Part shown: positions 1 to 37,540 of the stretch, piece by piece
How positions within the stretch are numbered: position 1 is the first letter of the stretch
Layout of the letters: each line of letters begins with the position of its first letter
IMG/VR virus record: IMGVR_UViG_3300044641_001089
Location: 1 to 37,540 of that record
Length of the DNA: 37,540 bases
Reading direction: 5' to 3' (one strand)
DNA from: a virus
Translations under genes and position numbers: made by a program
The notes under the pieces: model-generated
What the model saw: the letters and a program-made list of their open reading frames with translations, nothing else
The model's database searches: none
What the model was told of the DNA's origin: nothing

Positions 1-517
1 GGTAGTTAGATCAGCTATACGCGTCTTGCGTATAGTGATTGATATGTTGTTACAGAAACACCAGCAAGTTCACATTATCATGGCTGATGCCAACCACGAT
101 CCAGTAAGTCAGATATGGTTGCGAGAATGGTTCAGCGTGTTATACGAAAATGAACCTCGCATTACTGTGGATAAGTCACCCAACCCCTACAATGCCTATG
201 AGTTTGGTAAGACGGCATTATTCTTTCACCATGGACATAAGCGCAAAGTAACCAATGTGAGTGAAGTGTTTGCTGGTCAATTCCGCGAAATGTTTGGTCG
301 GACTAAATATGCTTATGCGCACACTGGTCATTTACACCACATCGATGTAAAAGAAAATAATTTAATGATTGTGGAACAACATAGAACCCTTGCCCCTGCT
401 GATGCTTATTCTGCTCGAGGTGGATGGCGCACTGGTCGGGATGCCAAAGTTATTACTTACCATAAAGAATTTGGCGAAGTCAGTCGATTAACTATTAGCA
501 GTGATATGCTTGCTTAA
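1..517 (+). CDS. Metallophosphoesterase, 3' part (5' end cut by window)
   Basis: This is the C-terminal 171 residues of a calcineurin-like/Mre11-type metallophosphoesterase, open from base 2 to the stop at 515-517. It aligns without gaps to residues 216-386 of the complete copy at 36256-37416. It keeps the later metal-binding motifs of the family: ANHD, a HHGHK block and a GHLHH block. By eye about 16 residues differ between the copies while many more codons differ silently, so both copies have been under purifying selection. A TTG at 26 could be mistaken for a start, but homology continues upstream of it to the window edge. The N-terminal HTH and the first metal motifs would lie outside the window. 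The substrate is unknown; a nucleic-acid phosphodiester is an inference from the Mre11/SbcD-like pattern. pqqA follows 89 bases after the stop. Confidence 0.85.
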   Translation, partial: VVRSAIRVLRIVIDMLLQKHQQVHIIMADANHDPVSQIWLREWFSVLYENEPRITVDKSPNPYNAYEFGKTALFFHHGHKRKVTNVSEVFAGQFREMFGRTKYAYAHTGHLHHIDVKENNLMIVEQHRTLAPADAYSARGGWRTGRDAKVITYHKEFGEVSRLTISSDMLA

Positions 518-568: not shown

Positions 569-606
569 CAAGCACTTTTGCTTTGTATGGATTAAGGACT
601 AATATC

Positions 607-678
607 ATGTGGACATCACCATCAGTTACGGAAATGCGTTTTGGCTTTGAAGTTACAATGTATGTAATGAACAAATAG
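607..678 (+). CDS. pqqA: PqqA, pyrroloquinoline quinone precursor peptide
   Basis: The gene encodes a 23-residue peptide starting MWTSPSVTEMRFGFEV and ending TMYVMNK. PqqA is the ribosomally made substrate from which PQQ, the redox cofactor of methanol, ethanol and glucose dehydrogenases, is cut: PqqE, with the carrier PqqD, crosslinks a Glu and a Tyr in an E-x3-Y motif. Here these are Glu15 and Tyr19, exactly the canonical positions, and the MW start, Pro5, Arg11, Gly13 and EVT context also match bacterial PqqA. Total length equals the usual 23 residues. An AAGGA ribosome binding site lies at 594-598. No pqqB, C, D or E is in the window, so maturation would need host enzymes. It stands between the phosphoesterase gene and a strong terminator, and a second copy starts at 37504. 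Too short for ordinary gene callers, but the match is specific. Confidence 0.93.
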   Translation: MWTSPSVTEMRFGFEVTMYVMNK

Positions 679-680
679 TC

Positions 681-694
681 TAAACATTTGTTTA
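681..694. repeat. Small perfect inverted repeat
   Basis: TAAACA and TGTTTA, separated by two T residues, form a perfect dyad just after the pqqA stop and just before the terminator. It could be a protein-binding site or an extra small hairpin; nothing in the sequence decides. Confidence 0.35.
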
Positions 695-700
695 AACATT

Positions 701-723
701 CCCACTTCGGTGGGATTTTTTTT
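701..723 (+). terminator. Intrinsic terminator after pqqA
   Basis: CCCAC and GGTGG-type arms close a TTCG tetraloop (CCCACTTCGGTGGG, 701-714), followed by an A and eight T residues at 716-723. This is a textbook rho-independent terminator with an extra-stable UUCG loop. It ends the late/lysis/pqqA transcript and separates it from the early promoter at 761-787. Confidence 0.93.
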
Positions 724-760
724 GCCTAAAAATTATTTTTAATTATTTTAACTAAAACGA

Positions 761-787
761 TTGACTGACTTATAAAGTTTATATAAT
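761..787 (+). promoter_or_regulatory. Early promoter P1
   Basis: TTGACT at 761-766 and TATAAT at 782-787 are separated by 15 bases; TAATAT at 784-789 would give the more usual 17. The same 15-base spacing recurs at 1329-1355 and 5306-5332, and the 17 bases at 779-795 recur exactly at 5325-5341. It follows the pqqA terminator and faces the early genes. Confidence 0.75.
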
Positions 788-795
788 ATTCAGTT

Positions 796-831
796 ATGCC
801 AGTTCGGCATTGAAACGAAAAGGAAACTAAA
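796..831 (+). promoter_or_regulatory. 5' hairpin plus conserved RBS leader of the 832 gene
   Basis: A 15-base hairpin (ATGCC, loop AGTTC, GGCAT; 796-810) begins 8 bases after the -10 box and so would sit at the extreme 5' end of the mRNA. It is followed by a 21-base purine-rich stretch with GAAACGAAAAGGAAAC that carries the ribosome binding site. The same design, with a differently spelled stem, precedes the gene at 1400. Confidence 0.7.
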
Positions 832-1137
832 ATGAAATACGCAAATCACCATGGTTATTCAGATGTAAACCCTTATGAAATCATAAGCCATGTATCAGAA
901 AAAACTATCGAAATCCGCGCAATGGATGCTGAAAAAAATCCCGATGTTAAAACATCATTTCAAATTGGTGGATTTTCTGCTCATAGCGATAATGCTCAAG
1001 AATGGTTTATTACATCAAATGTTGAACGCCCGATCATTAGAATTAGAAAAAATGTAAAAGGTATTTGGCAAGATAAGTATCGGAACAAATATTACTTATC
1101 AGATAAACCTTGTAAATTTTACGACTATAATTTTTAA
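832..1137 (+). CDS. Conserved phage protein of unknown function (101 aa)
   Basis: A 101-residue soluble protein with no signal peptide or membrane segment. I recognise it as a conserved hypothetical protein of phages and plasmids by its pattern: a YANHHGYSDVNPYE start, an EIRAMDAEKN segment, GGFSAH near residue 47, an ITSN segment and a KFYDYNF C-terminus. The His, Asp and aromatic-rich motifs are well conserved in what I remember of the family, but no function is known to me. It is the first gene after promoter P1 and the 5' hairpin leader, so it is probably expressed early and strongly. The start is fixed by AGGAAAC ten bases upstream. Confidence 0.85.
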   Translation: MKYANHHGYSDVNPYEIISHVSEKTIEIRAMDAEKNPDVKTSFQIGGFSAHSDNAQEWFITSNVERPIIRIRKNVKGIWQDKYRNKYYLSDKPCKFYDYNF

Positions 1138-1144
1138 TCCAAAT

Positions 1145-1181
1145 GGGGCGCAAGCCCCTACTGAACGAAAGGGAAACTATC
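1145..1181 (+). promoter_or_regulatory. GNRA hairpin plus RBS leader of the 1182 gene
   Basis: GGGGC and GCCCC pair around a GCAA (GNRA) tetraloop at 1145-1158, followed by GAACGAAAGGGAAAC, a variant of the leader seen at 811 and 1379. No clear -35 box precedes it, so it is more likely an internal processing or translation element than a separate transcription start. Confidence 0.6.
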
Positions 1182-1340
1182 ATGCGTTATCAAGTTACTA
1201 AAAGTTTTATTGCTGGTATTTTAAAAGGTCAACAAGTTACTGAAATTACCAATGTGCCATTCAAACTTGGCAAAGAATATAAGAGCTGTGTCAATTCATC
1301 TATTTACTTAATTGTGGATGTAAAAAGATTGACAACATAA
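1182..1340 (+). CDS. Small hypothetical protein (52 aa)
   Basis: A 52-residue protein beginning MRYQVTKSFIAGILKG and containing a NVPFKLGKEYKSC segment. It looks like a small beta-strand-rich protein; no family known to me fits with confidence. An in-frame ATG at 1143 would add 13 residues, but it lies before the GC-rich hairpin; the GGGAAAC ribosome binding site and the leader shared with neighbouring genes support the start at 1182. The promoter of the next gene (-35 at 1329) overlaps its last codons. Confidence 0.7.
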   Translation: MRYQVTKSFIAGILKGQQVTEITNVPFKLGKEYKSCVNSSIYLIVDVKRLTT

Positions 1341-1355
1341 TAATTATTCTATAAA
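1329..1355 (+). promoter_or_regulatory. Early promoter P2
   Basis: A perfect -35 box TTGACA (1329-1334) and TATAAA (1350-1355) are spaced 15 bases, as in P1 and P3. The -35 box lies inside the end of the 1182 gene. A 5' hairpin starts 8 bases after the -10 box, exactly as at P1. Confidence 0.75.
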
Positions 1356-1363
1356 GTGTAGGT

Positions 1364-1399
1364 ATAGCAATTTGCTATTGAAACGAAAAGGAAACGAAA
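1364..1399 (+). promoter_or_regulatory. 5' hairpin plus RBS leader of the 1400 gene
   Basis: ATAGC, loop AATTT, GCTAT (1364-1378) gives a 5-bp stem and 5-base loop, the same geometry as 796-810 but with a different stem, so pairing rather than sequence is conserved. It is followed by the 21-base leader containing GAAACGAAAAGGAAAC and then the ATG. Confidence 0.7.
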
Positions 1400-1621
1400 A
1401 TGGGATTACAAACTATTCAAGTGTGTGGCGTAGATTTAGATGTTTACTATGATTGCACTATCACAAGAGATCCGTATGGAGTTGGTGATTCACCTACCGA
1501 GTATGAGGTCGAAATTCAAGCCATAGAAGTTGCTGGCGATACCCAAGACATTCAAGAGATTTTAGCTGATCGATGTATTGATTACATCATCGATATAATT
1601 ATTCAGATTGAGAGGGATTAA
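1400..1621 (+). CDS. Conserved phage protein of unknown function (73 aa)
   Basis: A 73-residue acidic protein with an N-terminal beta-strand part (IQVCGVDLDVYYDCTI), a central YEVEIQAIEVAGDTQDIQEIL segment and a helical C-terminus rich in Ile and Asp. The layout (a small protein about its own EI-x2-I-x2-G-D-x-D-I element followed by a helix) is one I associate with conserved hypothetical phage proteins; no function is known. It has its own promoter and hairpin leader. Its stop overlaps the next start region (TAAATG). Confidence 0.8.
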   Translation: MGLQTIQVCGVDLDVYYDCTITRDPYGVGDSPTEYEVEIQAIEVAGDTQDIQEILADRCIDYIIDIIIQIERD

Positions 1622-12268: not shown

Positions 12269-13729
12269 ATGAATGACAACAAACATAACAAATATGAAGC
12301 CTTTGCAGAAAAATGGTTTAAGACTAGATCGGCTTGTGAGGGACAAAGTGCAATTCATAATGCTGGCGAAAAATTCTTACCTAGACTAGCAGATCAAACC
12401 GACCATGATTATCGGTCTTACAAATTAAGAGCCACATACTTTAATGCCACTGGTCGAACCCTTGAGGGTTTAGTTGGCATGGTATTCCGTAAAGACATAG
12501 AAAAAGAATACCCAACAGCAATGGAATCCATATTTGATGATTTGGATTTAAAGGGCAATAGCTTAGATGCGGTTGCCATGATGACTGTAACAGATTTAAT
12601 ACAGGTAGGACGCGCTGGCATATTAGTTGAATACCCAAGCGTCACCGAAGCCCCAAATAGCCTTGCTGATGCCGCCAAAGCTAACCTGCGCCCATATACA
12701 ACTTATTATCCTGCCGAATCAATCTTGGATTGGCGAGTGACTAGGGTAAATAATGTCATGCAACCTGTAATGATTAAATTGCAGGAATCTTATGAAATCC
12801 AAAAAAATGAATTTGAGTATGATACACAGCCGCAGATTCGCGCATTGTTACTTACTGAAATAGGCTATATACAGCGCATATACCGCAAAGATGGCAAAGG
12901 TAATTGGGTTCAATTTGAAAACGATATAGTGCCGCTTATTAAGGGCTCACCAATTCCGTTTATTCCATTTTGGGCGTTTGGCGCAAAAGAAAATTGCCTT
13001 GATTTGCAAGACCCACCAATTTTAGATTTGGCTGATTTAAATATTGCCCATTATCGAGTTACCGCTGATTACGAACGGGGATGTCATTTTGCTGGATTGC
13101 CAACCCCTATGTTAGCTGGATTCGTGTTTGATGAAAACGAAAAGGTCAGCATTGGATCATCTACCGCCATAGTGTCAAGTGATAGTAGTGCTAATTGGGG
13201 ATTCTTAGAGTTTACTGGGCAAGGTTTAGGCGCATTAGAGAAAAACCTATTGCAAAAAGAAGCGCAAATGGCGGCTATTGGAGCAAGGATGCTTGCCCCT
13301 GAAAAAGCTGGCGTAGAATCTGCTGGCACATTGTTGATGAGGTCAAATGGCGAAGCTAGTGTTTTAGCGGCTTTAGTCAAATTGACTGGCGAAAACTTTG
13401 AGCAGATTACTCGATTTATGGCTACATGGTATGGGGTAGATGGCGATATTGAGATTGAATTAAATTCTGACTTTATGCCAGTGCCTATGACTGCACAAGA
13501 ACTTGATTCATTGATGAAGGCATGGCAAGTCGGTGGAATACCTAAAGAGGAATTATTCTATGCGCTAAAACAAGGCGAGGTAATTCGTGAATCTACTACT
13601 TATGATGATTATTTACTTGGTTTAGAGGCTGACGCAACCAATAACGCTGCCACAATGATTGATGATGTAGATCAACCTGACGATAACACTGGCGTATTAG
13701 CGCAAATTAGGTCAAAACTTGGTCTATGA
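12269..13729 (+). CDS. Portal protein (DUF4055 family)
   Basis: A 486-residue portal protein of the DUF4055 type: N-terminal helical part with FLPRLADQTDHDYRSYKLRA, then GRTLEGLVGMVFRKD, a central ADLNIAHYRVTADYERGCHF segment, and the helical AGVESAGTLLMRSNGEASVL stretch before an acidic C-terminus. The portal forms the dodecameric ring at the head vertex through which DNA passes. I choose the ATG at 12269, right after the terminase stop, rather than GTG at 12257, which would overlap terL. Its stop overlaps the fibre gene as ATGA. Confidence 0.92.
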   Translation: MNDNKHNKYEAFAEKWFKTRSACEGQSAIHNAGEKFLPRLADQTDHDYRSYKLRATYFNATGRTLEGLVGMVFRKDIEKEYPTAMESIFDDLDLKGNSLDAVAMMTVTDLIQVGRAGILVEYPSVTEAPNSLADAAKANLRPYTTYYPAESILDWRVTRVNNVMQPVMIKLQESYEIQKNEFEYDTQPQIRALLLTEIGYIQRIYRKDGKGNWVQFENDIVPLIKGSPIPFIPFWAFGAKENCLDLQDPPILDLADLNIAHYRVTADYERGCHFAGLPTPMLAGFVFDENEKVSIGSSTAIVSSDSSANWGFLEFTGQGLGALEKNLLQKEAQMAAIGARMLAPEKAGVESAGTLLMRSNGEASVLAALVKLTGENFEQITRFMATWYGVDGDIEIELNSDFMPVPMTAQELDSLMKAWQVGGIPKEELFYALKQGEVIRESTTYDDYLLGLEADATNNAATMIDDVDQPDDNTGVLAQIRSKLGL

Positions 13730-15915
13730 ATGAGTTAGTCGCATTATTAACCGAAGCCCTAGCAAAACTTAAGGATCGAGTTGATGCAATTGTCATGCCT
13801 GAATCAATTAAAGGTGACAAAGGCGAAAAAGGTGACAAGGGCGATAAAGGTGATCAAGGCGATGCTGGAAAAGATGGCGCAGACGGCATTGCTGGTGAGC
13901 GTGGGACTGATGGTGTAGATGGTAAAGACGGCAAAGATGGCGTAGATGGAGCAGATGGCATTGATGGCAAAGATGGTAAAAATGGGCAAGATGGAAAAGA
14001 TGGGCAAGATGGAAAAAATGGCATTGACGGTAAAGATGGCATTGATGGTTTGTCTATTAAAGGCGATAAAGGCGATAAGCCGAATCACGAATGGAAAGGC
14101 ACAAAATTAAGATTTGAATTGCCTAATGGCGAGTGGGGCAAGTCCATTGATTTAGCTGGTAAAGATGGATTAAGTCGTTTCATGGGTGGATCTACTGGCG
14201 TTCAATCATTAACATCTACTGGCAATACCGTTCAAATTACAAATGATGGAACTACTTTCAATTTGGAAGTTTCGCCTACCAGTGGTGGAATAACCGAAAT
14301 AACATCATTAGATGGTAGCCTTGTTGTAACTCAAGACGGCACAGTTGCCAATGTCCAAGTATCGGAAGCATCGCCAGCGTCAACAATATTAGCGCAAGTT
14401 CGTAATGCCACTGGCGCAACCTTGACAAAAGGAACTGTGGTTTATATTAGTGGAGCAATAGGAAATAAAGCCACCGTTTCAAAAGCATTAGCAACATCCG
14501 ATGCGACTTCTGCTCAAACCCTTGGATTAATTACTTCTGATTTAGCAAACAATAGTAACGGTTATGTTACTGTAATGGGTCAATTGGTTGGATTAAATAC
14601 ATCCGCATTTAATGAGGGCGATCAGTTATATTTAAGTGGAACGGTTGCTGGAACATATACGGCAACAAGACAATTAGCACCAACTCATTTAGTTTATATT
14701 GGCATAGTCACAAGAAGTCATAATAATTTTGGCGCAATTGAAGTCAAAGTGCAAAATGGCTATGAATTGGATGAATTACATGATGTTTCCATTGTAAGCA
14801 AAACAAACAATCAAGCCTTAGTCTATGAATCTGCCACAGGATTATGGAAAAATAAAACAATCGATTATTCATGGCTTAATAACAAGCCAACAATTCCGAC
14901 TGCCGTCAGTCAATTAACCAATGATAGTGGTTTTATTACTGGCGTAACTTGGGATCAGGTTACTAGCAAACCAACATTTGCCACAGTAGCAACTTCAGGC
15001 TCATATAGCGATCTATCAAACAAGCCCACTATTCCAGTTGTGCCTACAAATATAAGCGCATTCACTAATGATAGTGGATACATAACTGGTTATACCGAAA
15101 CAGATCCAGTTTTTGTTGCTCATGCCGCTTATAATGTTACATCATTAAAAATAACCAACTGGGATACTGCTTATAGTTGGGGAAATCATGCGACTGCTGG
15201 CTATTTAACAAGCATTAGCGGATTAATGGTTACTACCGCATTAGGGTTTACGCCATATAATGCAACTAACCCATCGGGATATATCAGCACTGAAACGGAT
15301 CCAATATTTACTGCTCATGCGGCTTATGGAATTACCAGCACAAACATAAGTAATTGGAGCACTGCCTATGGGTGGGGCAATCATGCAAGTGCAGGATATT
15401 TAACTGCCGCCAGTGTTGGAACTATTGCTACTCAAAATAGCGATTCAGTCAATATAGATGGCGGTAATATAGATAACACGCCAATTGGTGCGACTACTGC
15501 AAGCACTGGCGCATTTACTACTATTACATCAGATATTGCAAGCGGTAAGTTTGTTACATTTAAAATATCGGGGACAGAAGCAGGATCAATTGCCGTCAAT
15601 GGCGCAACAACAATCTATAACACCACCTCGGATTATCGCCTTAAAACAAATCAAAGACCGTTGTGCAATTATGAACAATTTATAAATGCGTTAAAGCCAA
15701 AACAATGGGAGTGGTTCGGTAGCAATATAACAGCAAGCGGATTTATTGCCCATGAAGTGCAAGAAGTTGCCCCAACATCGGTTATGGGTGAAAAAGATGG
15801 CGATGATTATCAAAGCATGGATGCCAGCTCACCTGAAATCATGGCGAACTTAATTGCCTATGTTCAAAACCTAAGTGCAAAAATTGCACATTTGGAAAAC
15901 CAATTAAATGGCTAG
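13726..15915 (+). CDS. Collagen-like fibre with S74 chaperone domain
   Basis: A 729-residue fibre. Residues 29-120 are collagen-like Gly-X-Y triplets (GDKGEKGDKGDKGDQGD and GKDGKDGVDGADG types), which should trimerise. The middle contains beta-structured segments and two repeats of the form NW-x-TAY-x-WGNHA-x-AGYLT (about 470-500 and 540-570). The C-terminus, from SDYRLKTNQRPL through GFIAHEVQEVAPTSV to a leucine-zipper-like end, is the intramolecular chaperone of peptidase S74, which trimerises and cuts itself off, probably at the Ser of SDYRLK. It lies between portal and MuF genes rather than with the tail fibres, so it may be a head or neck fibre. Overlaps both neighbours. Confidence 0.9.
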   Translation: MNELVALLTEALAKLKDRVDAIVMPESIKGDKGEKGDKGDKGDQGDAGKDGADGIAGERGTDGVDGKDGKDGVDGADGIDGKDGKNGQDGKDGQDGKNGIDGKDGIDGLSIKGDKGDKPNHEWKGTKLRFELPNGEWGKSIDLAGKDGLSRFMGGSTGVQSLTSTGNTVQITNDGTTFNLEVSPTSGGITEITSLDGSLVVTQDGTVANVQVSEASPASTILAQVRNATGATLTKGTVVYISGAIGNKATVSKALATSDATSAQTLGLITSDLANNSNGYVTVMGQLVGLNTSAFNEGDQLYLSGTVAGTYTATRQLAPTHLVYIGIVTRSHNNFGAIEVKVQNGYELDELHDVSIVSKTNNQALVYESATGLWKNKTIDYSWLNNKPTIPTAVSQLTNDSGFITGVTWDQVTSKPTFATVATSGSYSDLSNKPTIPVVPTNISAFTNDSGYITGYTETDPVFVAHAAYNVTSLKITNWDTAYSWGNHATAGYLTSISGLMVTTALGFTPYNATNPSGYISTETDPIFTAHAAYGITSTNISNWSTAYGWGNHASAGYLTAASVGTIATQNSDSVNIDGGNIDNTPIGATTASTGAFTTITSDIASGKFVTFKISGTEAGSIAVNGATTIYNTTSDYRLKTNQRPLCNYEQFINALKPKQWEWFGSNITASGFIAHEVQEVAPTSVMGEKDGDDYQSMDASSPEIMANLIAYVQNLSAKIAHLENQLNG

Positions 15916-36186: not shown

Positions 36187-36259
36187 TGGTGGTATCTGCT
36201 TGGACAGGGATAGCACTGCCAAATTGGGTGAGTATATTCTCGAATTGGAACGCAGATGA
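36074..36259 (+). CDS. Outer-membrane spanin lipoprotein (o-spanin, Rz1-like)
   Basis: A 61-residue lipoprotein nested in the +1 frame of the preceding gene, overlapping it by 113 bases. It has a short signal sequence (MPYIKILPIGLLIILTAC) with lipobox LTAC and Cys18, then a Pro-rich segment (KPTKPILQILPQ) and the pattern GGICLDRDSTAKLGEYILEL common in Rz1-like proteins. Together with the i-spanin candidate it would fuse inner and outer membranes at the last step of lysis in a Gram-negative host. The start at 36074 follows AAAGAGAG. Confidence 0.82.
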   Translation: MPYIKILPIGLLIILTACQTQTIIKPTKPILQILPQNDGGICLDRDSTAKLGEYILELERR

Positions 36260-37416
36260 AAATTGATGAGCAACTAAAGCAGTTTGCTACTGAAAGGCAG
36301 ATAGAATATATTGATGCCGTCAATAAGTATGGCTCACTGCAAAATGCCGCAGATCGATTAAAAGTCTGTAAGGGATCAGTGCAAAACGCCATTGATCAAG
36401 TAAGGCGTAAAGCGGCGGTGCGTGGATATGCCCCAGATGCAGATATGACTAGGATAACCCCTGCGCCATTCGTGGTGAGGGGTACAAGCAATCTATATGA
36501 TGGGGATGGGGTATTAAAAGCCTCATGGGTTAAGACTAGGCTAGATGATGATCAATTCCAGCAGATGCTACTGGATGCCATAGAGGGCTTTAAAGACGAT
36601 ATTCCTAGGGTATCAATGCTTGCCCCACCACCATTAGGCAATAGCAACATACTCAACTGCTATGTGATCACTGACTATCACATGGGGATGCTAAGTTGGA
36701 AACCCGAAACAGGCGAGGACTGGGATCTTAAGCTGGCAGAGGAATTAATAGTCAAATGGTTTGCTCAAGCCATTGTACAATCACCAGATGCCGATACTGC
36801 CGTATTTGCCCAGATGTCAGACTTTTTACATTTCGATGGCATGGATGCGGTAACGCCAGCCTCAAAACATCTGCTAGATGTCGATACTCGATTTGCAAAG
36901 GTAGTTAGATCAGCGATTAGGGTATTGCGGACTGTGATCGATATGTTGCTACAAAAGCACCAGAAAGTTCACATTATCATGGCTGATGCTAACCATGATC
37001 CAGTAAGCCAGATCTGGTTGCGTGAATGGTTTAGCGTGTTGTATGAGAATGAGCCTAGGATTACTGTCGATAAATCACCATCACCATATAATGTCTATGA
37101 GTTTGGTGCTACTGCACTATTTTTCCATCATGGACATAAGCGCAGAGTAACTAATGTAAGTGAAGTATTTGCGGCTCAATTTAGAGAGGTCTATGGCCGC
37201 ACTAAACACGCCTTTGCTCATACTGGGCATCTGCACCATCTTGATGTTAAAGAGAATAACCTTATGATAGTCGAACAGCATAGGACACTAGCCCCTGCTG
37301 ATGCTTATGCCGCCCGTGGTGGATGGATCACTGGGCGAGATGCCAAGGTCATTACCTATCACAAAGAGTTTGGCGAGGTAAGTCGATTAACGATCAACTC
37401 GGATATGCTTAAATAA
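36256..37416 (+). CDS. HTH-metallophosphoesterase, complete copy
   Basis: A 386-residue protein with an N-terminal helix-turn-helix (about 20-55, NKYGSLQNAADRLKVCKGSV) and a calcineurin-like/Mre11-type phosphoesterase domain from about 130: Asp140-x-His142 (ITDYHMG), Asp189 (AQMSDFLHFDG), ANHD (245-248), HHGHK (291-295) and GHLHH (324-328). All metal-binding motifs are present. HTH-linked phosphoesterases of this kind recur in phages; a role in processing phage or host DNA is inferred. Its last 171 codons are repeated in diverged form at 1-517. The start overlaps the spanin stop (ATGA). Confidence 0.87.
   Translation: MKIDEQLKQFATERQIEYIDAVNKYGSLQNAADRLKVCKGSVQNAIDQVRRKAAVRGYAPDADMTRITPAPFVVRGTSNLYDGDGVLKASWVKTRLDDDQFQQMLLDAIEGFKDDIPRVSMLAPPPLGNSNILNCYVITDYHMGMLSWKPETGEDWDLKLAEELIVKWFAQAIVQSPDADTAVFAQMSDFLHFDGMDAVTPASKHLLDVDTRFAKVVRSAIRVLRTVIDMLLQKHQKVHIIMADANHDPVSQIWLREWFSVLYENEPRITVDKSPSPYNVYEFGATALFFHHGHKRRVTNVSEVFAAQFREVYGRTKHAFAHTGHLHHLDVKENNLMIVEQHRTLAPADAYAARGGWITGRDAKVITYHKEFGEVSRLTINSDMLK
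36900..37416. repeat. Homology to the left end of the window
   Basis: Bases 36901-37416 align with 2-517 at a constant offset of 36,899 with no indel. A sampled 60 bases (1-60) show about 12 mismatches, and 61-120 show about 5, so identity varies around 80-92%. This is too divergent to be a terminal redundancy of a single genome. It marks where the genome unit closes and the sequence enters a second, related version of the same locus. Confidence 0.9.
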
Positions 37417-37433
37417 TGATTATCCGTATGGCG

Positions 37434-37483
37434 ATATGTATAAAAAAGAGCAAAATCTATACATATACACAATGACGTGTATA
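37434..37483 (+). promoter_or_regulatory. Nested inverted repeats in the second pqqA leader
   Basis: ATATGTATA (37434-37442) pairs perfectly with TATACATAT (37458-37466), and TATACAC (37464-37470) with GTGTATA (37477-37483). The two stems share bases and so exclude each other. The first pqqA leader (539-568) has a similar competing arrangement with different bases. AGGAGAA (37490-37496) is the ribosome binding site. Confidence 0.55.
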
Positions 37484-37503
37484 AAAAACAGGAGAATTTG
37501 AAC

Positions 37504-37540
37504 ATGTGGACATCACCATCAGCTACTGAAATGCGTTTTG
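37504..37540 (+). CDS. pqqA: PqqA, second copy (3' end cut by window)
   Basis: The window ends 37 bases into a second pqqA: MWTSPSATEMRF, identical to the first copy except Ala for Val at position 7, and 35 of 37 bases the same. The stretch holding Glu15 and Tyr19 lies beyond the window. It follows the complete phosphoesterase gene by 87 bases, the same order as at the left end, so pqqA is a stable resident of this locus in both versions. Confidence 0.85.
   Translation, partial: MWTSPSATEMRF

Follow-up and report, generated by a model that had tools for sequence, protein, structure and literature searches.

Why would a phage carry pqqA, the gene for the PQQ precursor peptide, and carry it alone? 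The question is raised by a 37,540-base virus record in IMG/VR (hereafter the window, meaning this whole stretch of DNA), in which an open reading frame of 23 codons runs on the plus strand from an ATG at 607 to a TAG at 676-678 and encodes the peptide MWTSPSVTEMRFGFEVTMYVMNK. This peptide scored 40.3 bits (E 2.9e-10) against the Pfam family PF08042 PqqA, for which the curated cut-off is 21.1 bits, and 40.1 bits against NCBIfam TIGR02107, the PqqA equivalog model for the PQQ precursor peptide, for which it is 20 bits. The Glu-x3-Tyr pair, which in a PqqA is expected within some 20-30 residues, is present as E15 and Y19 in the 23 amino acids. A general PqqA DNA pattern fixing W2, P5, R11, G13, E15, T17 and Y19 matched the window once and gave no match in 100 shuffles. 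These data show that the phage pqqA is complete and canonical; a first, sequence-only reading had described it as such, with its crosslink pair, ribosome binding site and terminator, and each of these features was borne out (Table 1).

Table 1. Features of the metallophosphoesterase-pqqA locus in the window (positions are those of the window)
Feature	Position	Strand	Description
Metallophosphoesterase, C-terminal part, diverged second allele	26..517	+	Left end of the contig; 77% identical to the right end
Ribosome binding site AAGGA	594..598	+	8 nt before the pqqA start codon
pqqA	607..678	+	23-aa PQQ precursor peptide MWTSPSVTEMRFGFEVTMYVMNK plus stop; crosslink residues Glu15, Tyr19
Intrinsic terminator-like hairpin TCCCACTTCGGTGGGA-TTTTTTTT, then eight T	700..715	+	Downstream of pqqA
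Small gene of unknown function	832..1137	+	Downstream of pqqA; order matched in related contig L250
Metallophosphoesterase-like protein	36256..37416	+	Full gene; immediately precedes pqqA once the genome is closed
Second pqqA allele, start only (MWTSPSATEMRF...)	37504..37540	+	Last 37 bases; broken off by the contig end

Comparison of the peptide with 50,697 phage records by tblastn, a search that the sequence-only reading had proposed, matched nine Methylophilales/Methylophilaceae phages (P19250A, Venkman, MEP301, MEP401, MEP402 and four Melnitz), the uncultured phage ctXG6705 and two records entitled 'Acinetobacter phage'. The GenBank phage records with a lone pqqA thus number at least ten, isolates included, and the gene is mostly unannotated in them: none is marked at this place in P19250A, Venkman, MEP301, MEP401 and MEP402, and in Melnitz and ctXG6705 pqqA lies beneath an apparently wrong antisense frame. 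A search of PHROGs with the peptide returned no match. The expectation that standard annotation misses the gene thus held in the phage records examined. Annotated hypothetical genes on the strand opposite to pqqA in two loci (L007 4961-5056 and L005 2067-2195) are probably spurious and hide pqqA. The two 'Acinetobacter phage MD-2021a' matches were rejected as phage cases; the one examined (L008, CAKLQF020000010.1) has a full pqqABCDE operon together with ppk and fur; it is evidently bacterial DNA, apparently from a chromosome deposited under a phage name. Its pqqABCDE was retained as a positive control.

To find relatives of the 23-aa peptide among uncultured viruses, degenerate DNA patterns served as the search method; these patterns fix some residues, and conservation was therefore judged at the free positions and in a scan with E15 and Y19 left open. 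In IMG/VR the general MW-type pattern matched at least 120 loci, all of those listed translating to exactly 23 residues and essentially all having a ribosome binding site, and an MKW-type pattern also matched at least 120, with exactly 24 residues in 118 of those listed. Together with two further scans, about 300 distinct viral pqqA loci were collected, which is a lower bound. A ribosome binding site comparable to AAGGA precedes 191 of 192 viral pqqA genes, and a terminator follows within 100 nt in 71 of 188, versus 17 of 1920 random stretches. No shared sigma-70-like promoter was enriched upstream (23% versus 22% in shuffles). The MKW matches (L384-L502) form a second large viral PqqA set whose types, IANR, INNK and FKQV, are unlike the Methylophilaceae VMNK type, and a 266-kb contig (L410) encodes an alphaproteobacteria-like PqqA of 29 aa.

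We then asked what accompanies the gene. With PqqB, PqqC, PqqD and PqqE from the bacterial control as queries, none was found in the 120+ MW-type viral loci or in the 120 MKW-type matches, each locus covering part of its genome, and only the control was recovered; pqqA does not adjoin pqqB-E in the viral loci, as it does in the bacterial pqqABCDE operon. The window and six GenBank phage genomes were searched whole, and these contained exactly one PqqA each and neither PqqE nor a PQQ-type alcohol dehydrogenase. PqqA, PqqE and the PQQ alcohol dehydrogenase were all found in a host Methylophilus genome, which was used as a positive control. The carriers differ widely: pqqA occurs in siphovirus-like genomes with exonuclease and single-strand-binding genes, in T4-like genomes that encode a translation repressor and Hsp20, after a major head protein, or beside a metallophosphoesterase. 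Among the carriers in culture are members of Zobellviridae (MEP402) and Kyanoviridae (Melnitz), and the terminases, capsids and replication genes of the carriers are unrelated. These differing backgrounds and gene neighbourhoods indicate that pqqA was probably acquired by phages on several occasions, a reading drawn from backgrounds and neighbourhoods, the synonymous sites of the 69-base coding sequences being near saturation. Clustering of the loci by shared genes gave 4 to 29 clusters depending on the threshold, and hence no number of acquisitions is given.

In the scan with residues 15 and 19 open, Glu and Tyr were kept in 120 of 120 matches, a result that concerns peptides already near consensus, because 12 other residues were fixed. 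The loss of E-x3-Y in related phages, which the sequence-only reading had named as evidence against itself, was thus not observed. Among 173 distinct viral coding sequences, with the 15 codons left free in the first scan, dS was 1.3 and dN 0.18, giving an omega of 0.13, and in the Methylophilaceae-like subset omega was 0.09. Viral pqqA is therefore under purifying selection, with omega about 0.1 (0.09-0.13 across 146-173 distinct viral sequences), which means that the gene is maintained by selection in viruses. With synonymous sites near saturation (dS 1.1-1.3), selection acts on the peptide and not on the RNA.

On the host side, a genome scan for T[ED][ML]RFGFE[VI]T[ML]YVMN[KR] returned at least 120 loci. 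Titles among the matches listed named Methylotenera, Methylophilus, Methylopumilus, OM43 and other Methylophilaceae, and the remaining ones were a few MAGs with no finer label than Nitrosomonadales, Betaproteobacteria, Pseudomonadota or uncultured, which is consistent with Methylophilaceae. The host peptide is mostly MWT[TK]PAATEMRFGFEVTMYVMNK, and the Methylophilaceae-type phage peptide is almost identical to it. We infer that the PqqA type of the window phage points to a Methylophilaceae host, and PqqA type might serve as a host marker for other uncultured phages. PqqA was present in 60 of 60 Methylophilaceae genomes, in 1-12 copies each (median 5). A previous study counted 3-12 pqqA copies in Methylophilaceae versus a typically single pqqBCDE set (PMC4109929), so that the hosts, like the phages, amplify only the precursor. 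The solitary host copies resemble the viral ones in their 23-aa type, ribosome binding site and terminator; they are chromosomal, whereas the viral copies are flanked by phage genes and vary more in sequence.

Further genes of C1 oxidation accompany pqqA in two of 15 mostly large pqqA-bearing contigs searched. A 188-kb viral contig (G070; pqqA in L449) encodes PmoC (402 bits, L504 8949-9701), among genes that by reading of their translations look like ligase, ClpP and helicase. A 72-kb viral contig (G078; pqqA in L058) encodes an XoxF-like PQQ alcohol dehydrogenase (608 bits), followed directly, again by reading of translations, by a 946-aa formate dehydrogenase-like protein (both within L503 7990-12784). 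The presence of pmoC or of a PQQ alcohol dehydrogenase beside pqqA in these contigs ties phage pqqA to C1 oxidation. Curli-like and ClpS-like genes are also found near the PQQ alcohol dehydrogenase of the 72-kb contig.

Considering the solitary state, the conserved crosslink residues, the purifying selection, the near-identity to the host peptide, the recurrence in unrelated phages and the co-occurrence with pmoC or a PQQ-dehydrogenase in two contigs, we consider it likely that viral pqqA is an auxiliary metabolic gene for the PQQ precursor peptide, which would keep methanol dehydrogenase loaded during infection. A precursor-only auxiliary gene is what the sequence-only reading had proposed, and its support, which is strong, is that of sequence. 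According to this model, the phage would produce PqqA during infection, host PqqD and PqqE would bind the peptide and form the crosslink between Glu15 and Tyr19, and PQQ would then be completed by PqqB, PqqC and peptidases of the host. One PqqA is used per PQQ, while the Pqq enzymes are reused. Because of this, the peptide would be the first component to be lost when the phage curtails host expression, and the part needing renewal then or when demand rises, so that supplying the peptide alone would be the least costly means of keeping up PQQ and, with it, methanol dehydrogenase. The extra PQQ would keep methanol dehydrogenase (XoxF/MxaF) loaded, and the loaded enzyme would go on providing energy and carbon while the phage replicates. 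That the gene is expressed in infection, that host PqqD/E process its product, that PQQ rises and that the phage benefits is what we infer from these sequences. With somewhat less assurance, we think it probable that phages infecting PQQ-dependent methylotrophs and other PQQ producers have repeatedly evolved precursor-only PQQ supply as a general strategy, in which ~35-kb siphoviruses up to ~190-kb phages would each have taken a lone pqqA because the consumable peptide, and not the enzymes, limits the cofactor in infection. A comparable case is cyanophage psbA, which encodes a protein subunit that gets damaged, the phage replacing the fastest-turnover component of a host energy pathway. Both genes would renew the fastest-turnover part, PqqA differing in that it is a substrate turned into a cofactor. 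The size of the effect may be small: in Acetobacter, extra pqqAB raised PQQ by 29%, whereas the full pqqABCDE set raised it eightfold (PMC7936290), and thus the precursor alone may give a modest gain and a large effect is not to be assumed.

Other functions for the peptide were weighed against this auxiliary role. The best placed of them, although unlikely, is that PqqA or its RNA is a regulatory or moonlighting molecule that signals or regulates and is not a PQQ substrate. Hosts have many solitary pqqA copies that respond differently to conditions, according to Ge 2015 as far as that work is cited in PMC9851590, but the features of a PqqD/PqqE substrate are kept by selection in the viral peptides, and the near-saturated synonymous sites place that selection on the peptide and not on the RNA. 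A little less likely again is a decoy, in which phage PqqA would tie up PqqD/PqqE and block PQQ synthesis, starving competing phages or halting host metabolism. Surplus substrate could in principle titrate PqqD, but none of the results obtained favours this reading; in a decoy the crosslink residues should have been lost or altered, and the viral peptides keep both of them and nearly the whole host sequence. In addition, hosts themselves have about five pqqA copies, and of the genes found with pqqA in the two contigs the PQQ-dehydrogenase needs PQQ. Disfavoured like the decoy, and slightly more improbable, is that short host copies were captured by recombination and are carried without benefit. 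The many dispersed solitary copies of the hosts raise the chance of such capture, but the 23-24-aa frame is intact in nearly all of the about 300 loci and almost always preceded by a ribosome binding site, many unrelated phage backgrounds carry it, and neither broken copies in numbers nor an omega near 1 was seen while synonymous change approached saturation.

An auxiliary role for phage PqqA has been proposed before. The sequence-only reading knew of no phage pqqA, which was wrong, since PqqA was reported in 2020 in the Lake Baikal virus VP_266, a Methylophilaceae virus, and proposed there as an auxiliary gene for methanol oxidation (PMC7678222). VP_266 shares its presumed host family and this proposal with the window phage; it is a metagenomic genome of T4-like type in which methanol dehydrogenase is encoded too, and was reported as a single case, whereas the window phage is unrelated, of ~38 kb, and has PqqA alone. 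A 2026 list of viral genes from reservoir sediments includes pqqA, pqqE and pqqD (PMC13188868). Phage pmoC and other auxiliary genes of methane and C1 metabolism (PMC10904782) resemble pqqA in that they would support host C1 oxidation, but pmoC encodes a whole enzyme subunit and pqqA a consumable precursor peptide. The main text of a wide-ranging survey of methane-metabolism genes in viruses makes no reference to pqq, and the accessible papers on the pqqA-bearing isolates do not name PqqA as an auxiliary gene. Phage PqqA itself is thus known; what appears unreported is how broadly it occurs, that cultured isolates have it, that it recurs in unrelated phages, that it is conserved and that the precursor is supplied alone, most subscription journals lying outside the search. 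If the auxiliary role is true, phages would be able to control a redox cofactor, and through it the oxidation of methanol and methane, by means of a 72-base gene missed by standard annotation. Several carriers are cultured together with their hosts, which makes the question directly testable, and the case suggests that other consumed precursor peptides deserve a virome search.

The locus in the window has a further peculiarity, which bears on its origin. The two ends of the window, 1-643 and 36899-37540, are diverged alleles of one metallophosphoesterase-pqqA locus, 77% identical over 647 aligned positions, and the start of a second pqqA allele at the right end was absent from the sequence-only reading. 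In the related contig L250 the phosphoesterase (95% to the right end of the window), pqqA and the later genes (these 98.7% to window positions 592-1521) form a single unbroken stretch, and the gene order around metallophosphoesterase-pqqA is the same in L127, L249 and L251-L254. Taken together, the diverged ends and the uninterrupted relatives indicate that there is a single metallophosphoesterase-pqqA locus, of which the window would be a permuted or chimeric linear version. The diverged ends suggest either that sequence of two strains was joined into a permuted genome or that recombination took place around this region. In more distant relatives (~69-77% in the phosphoesterase) pqqA is patchy, and therefore the wider lineage can do without the gene. 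An origin as host DNA, either misassembled into a viral contig or contaminating it, for which the chimeric or permuted termini might speak and which the sequence-only reading had named as fatal to its claim, has a negligible probability and was rejected, since pqqA follows the same phage gene in nine of nine close relatives with room downstream and in L127, an order repeated in ten related viral contigs, the closest DNA is viral (2 differences) and not host (7 differences), and complete genomes of cultured phages contain the gene. The window is a virus record whose terminase shares 60% identity with the one from Caulobacter phage DMCA and whose capsid protein shares 49% with the one from Rhizobium phage P106B, and with the gene order of its relatives and the near-identical host peptide, pqqA has the marks of a host-derived metabolic gene in a genuine virus genome. 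Elsewhere in the window, 13726-15915 encodes a large protein in which a collagen-like GxY repeat lies close to the N-terminus and the C-terminal region resembles a tail-fibre chaperone domain.
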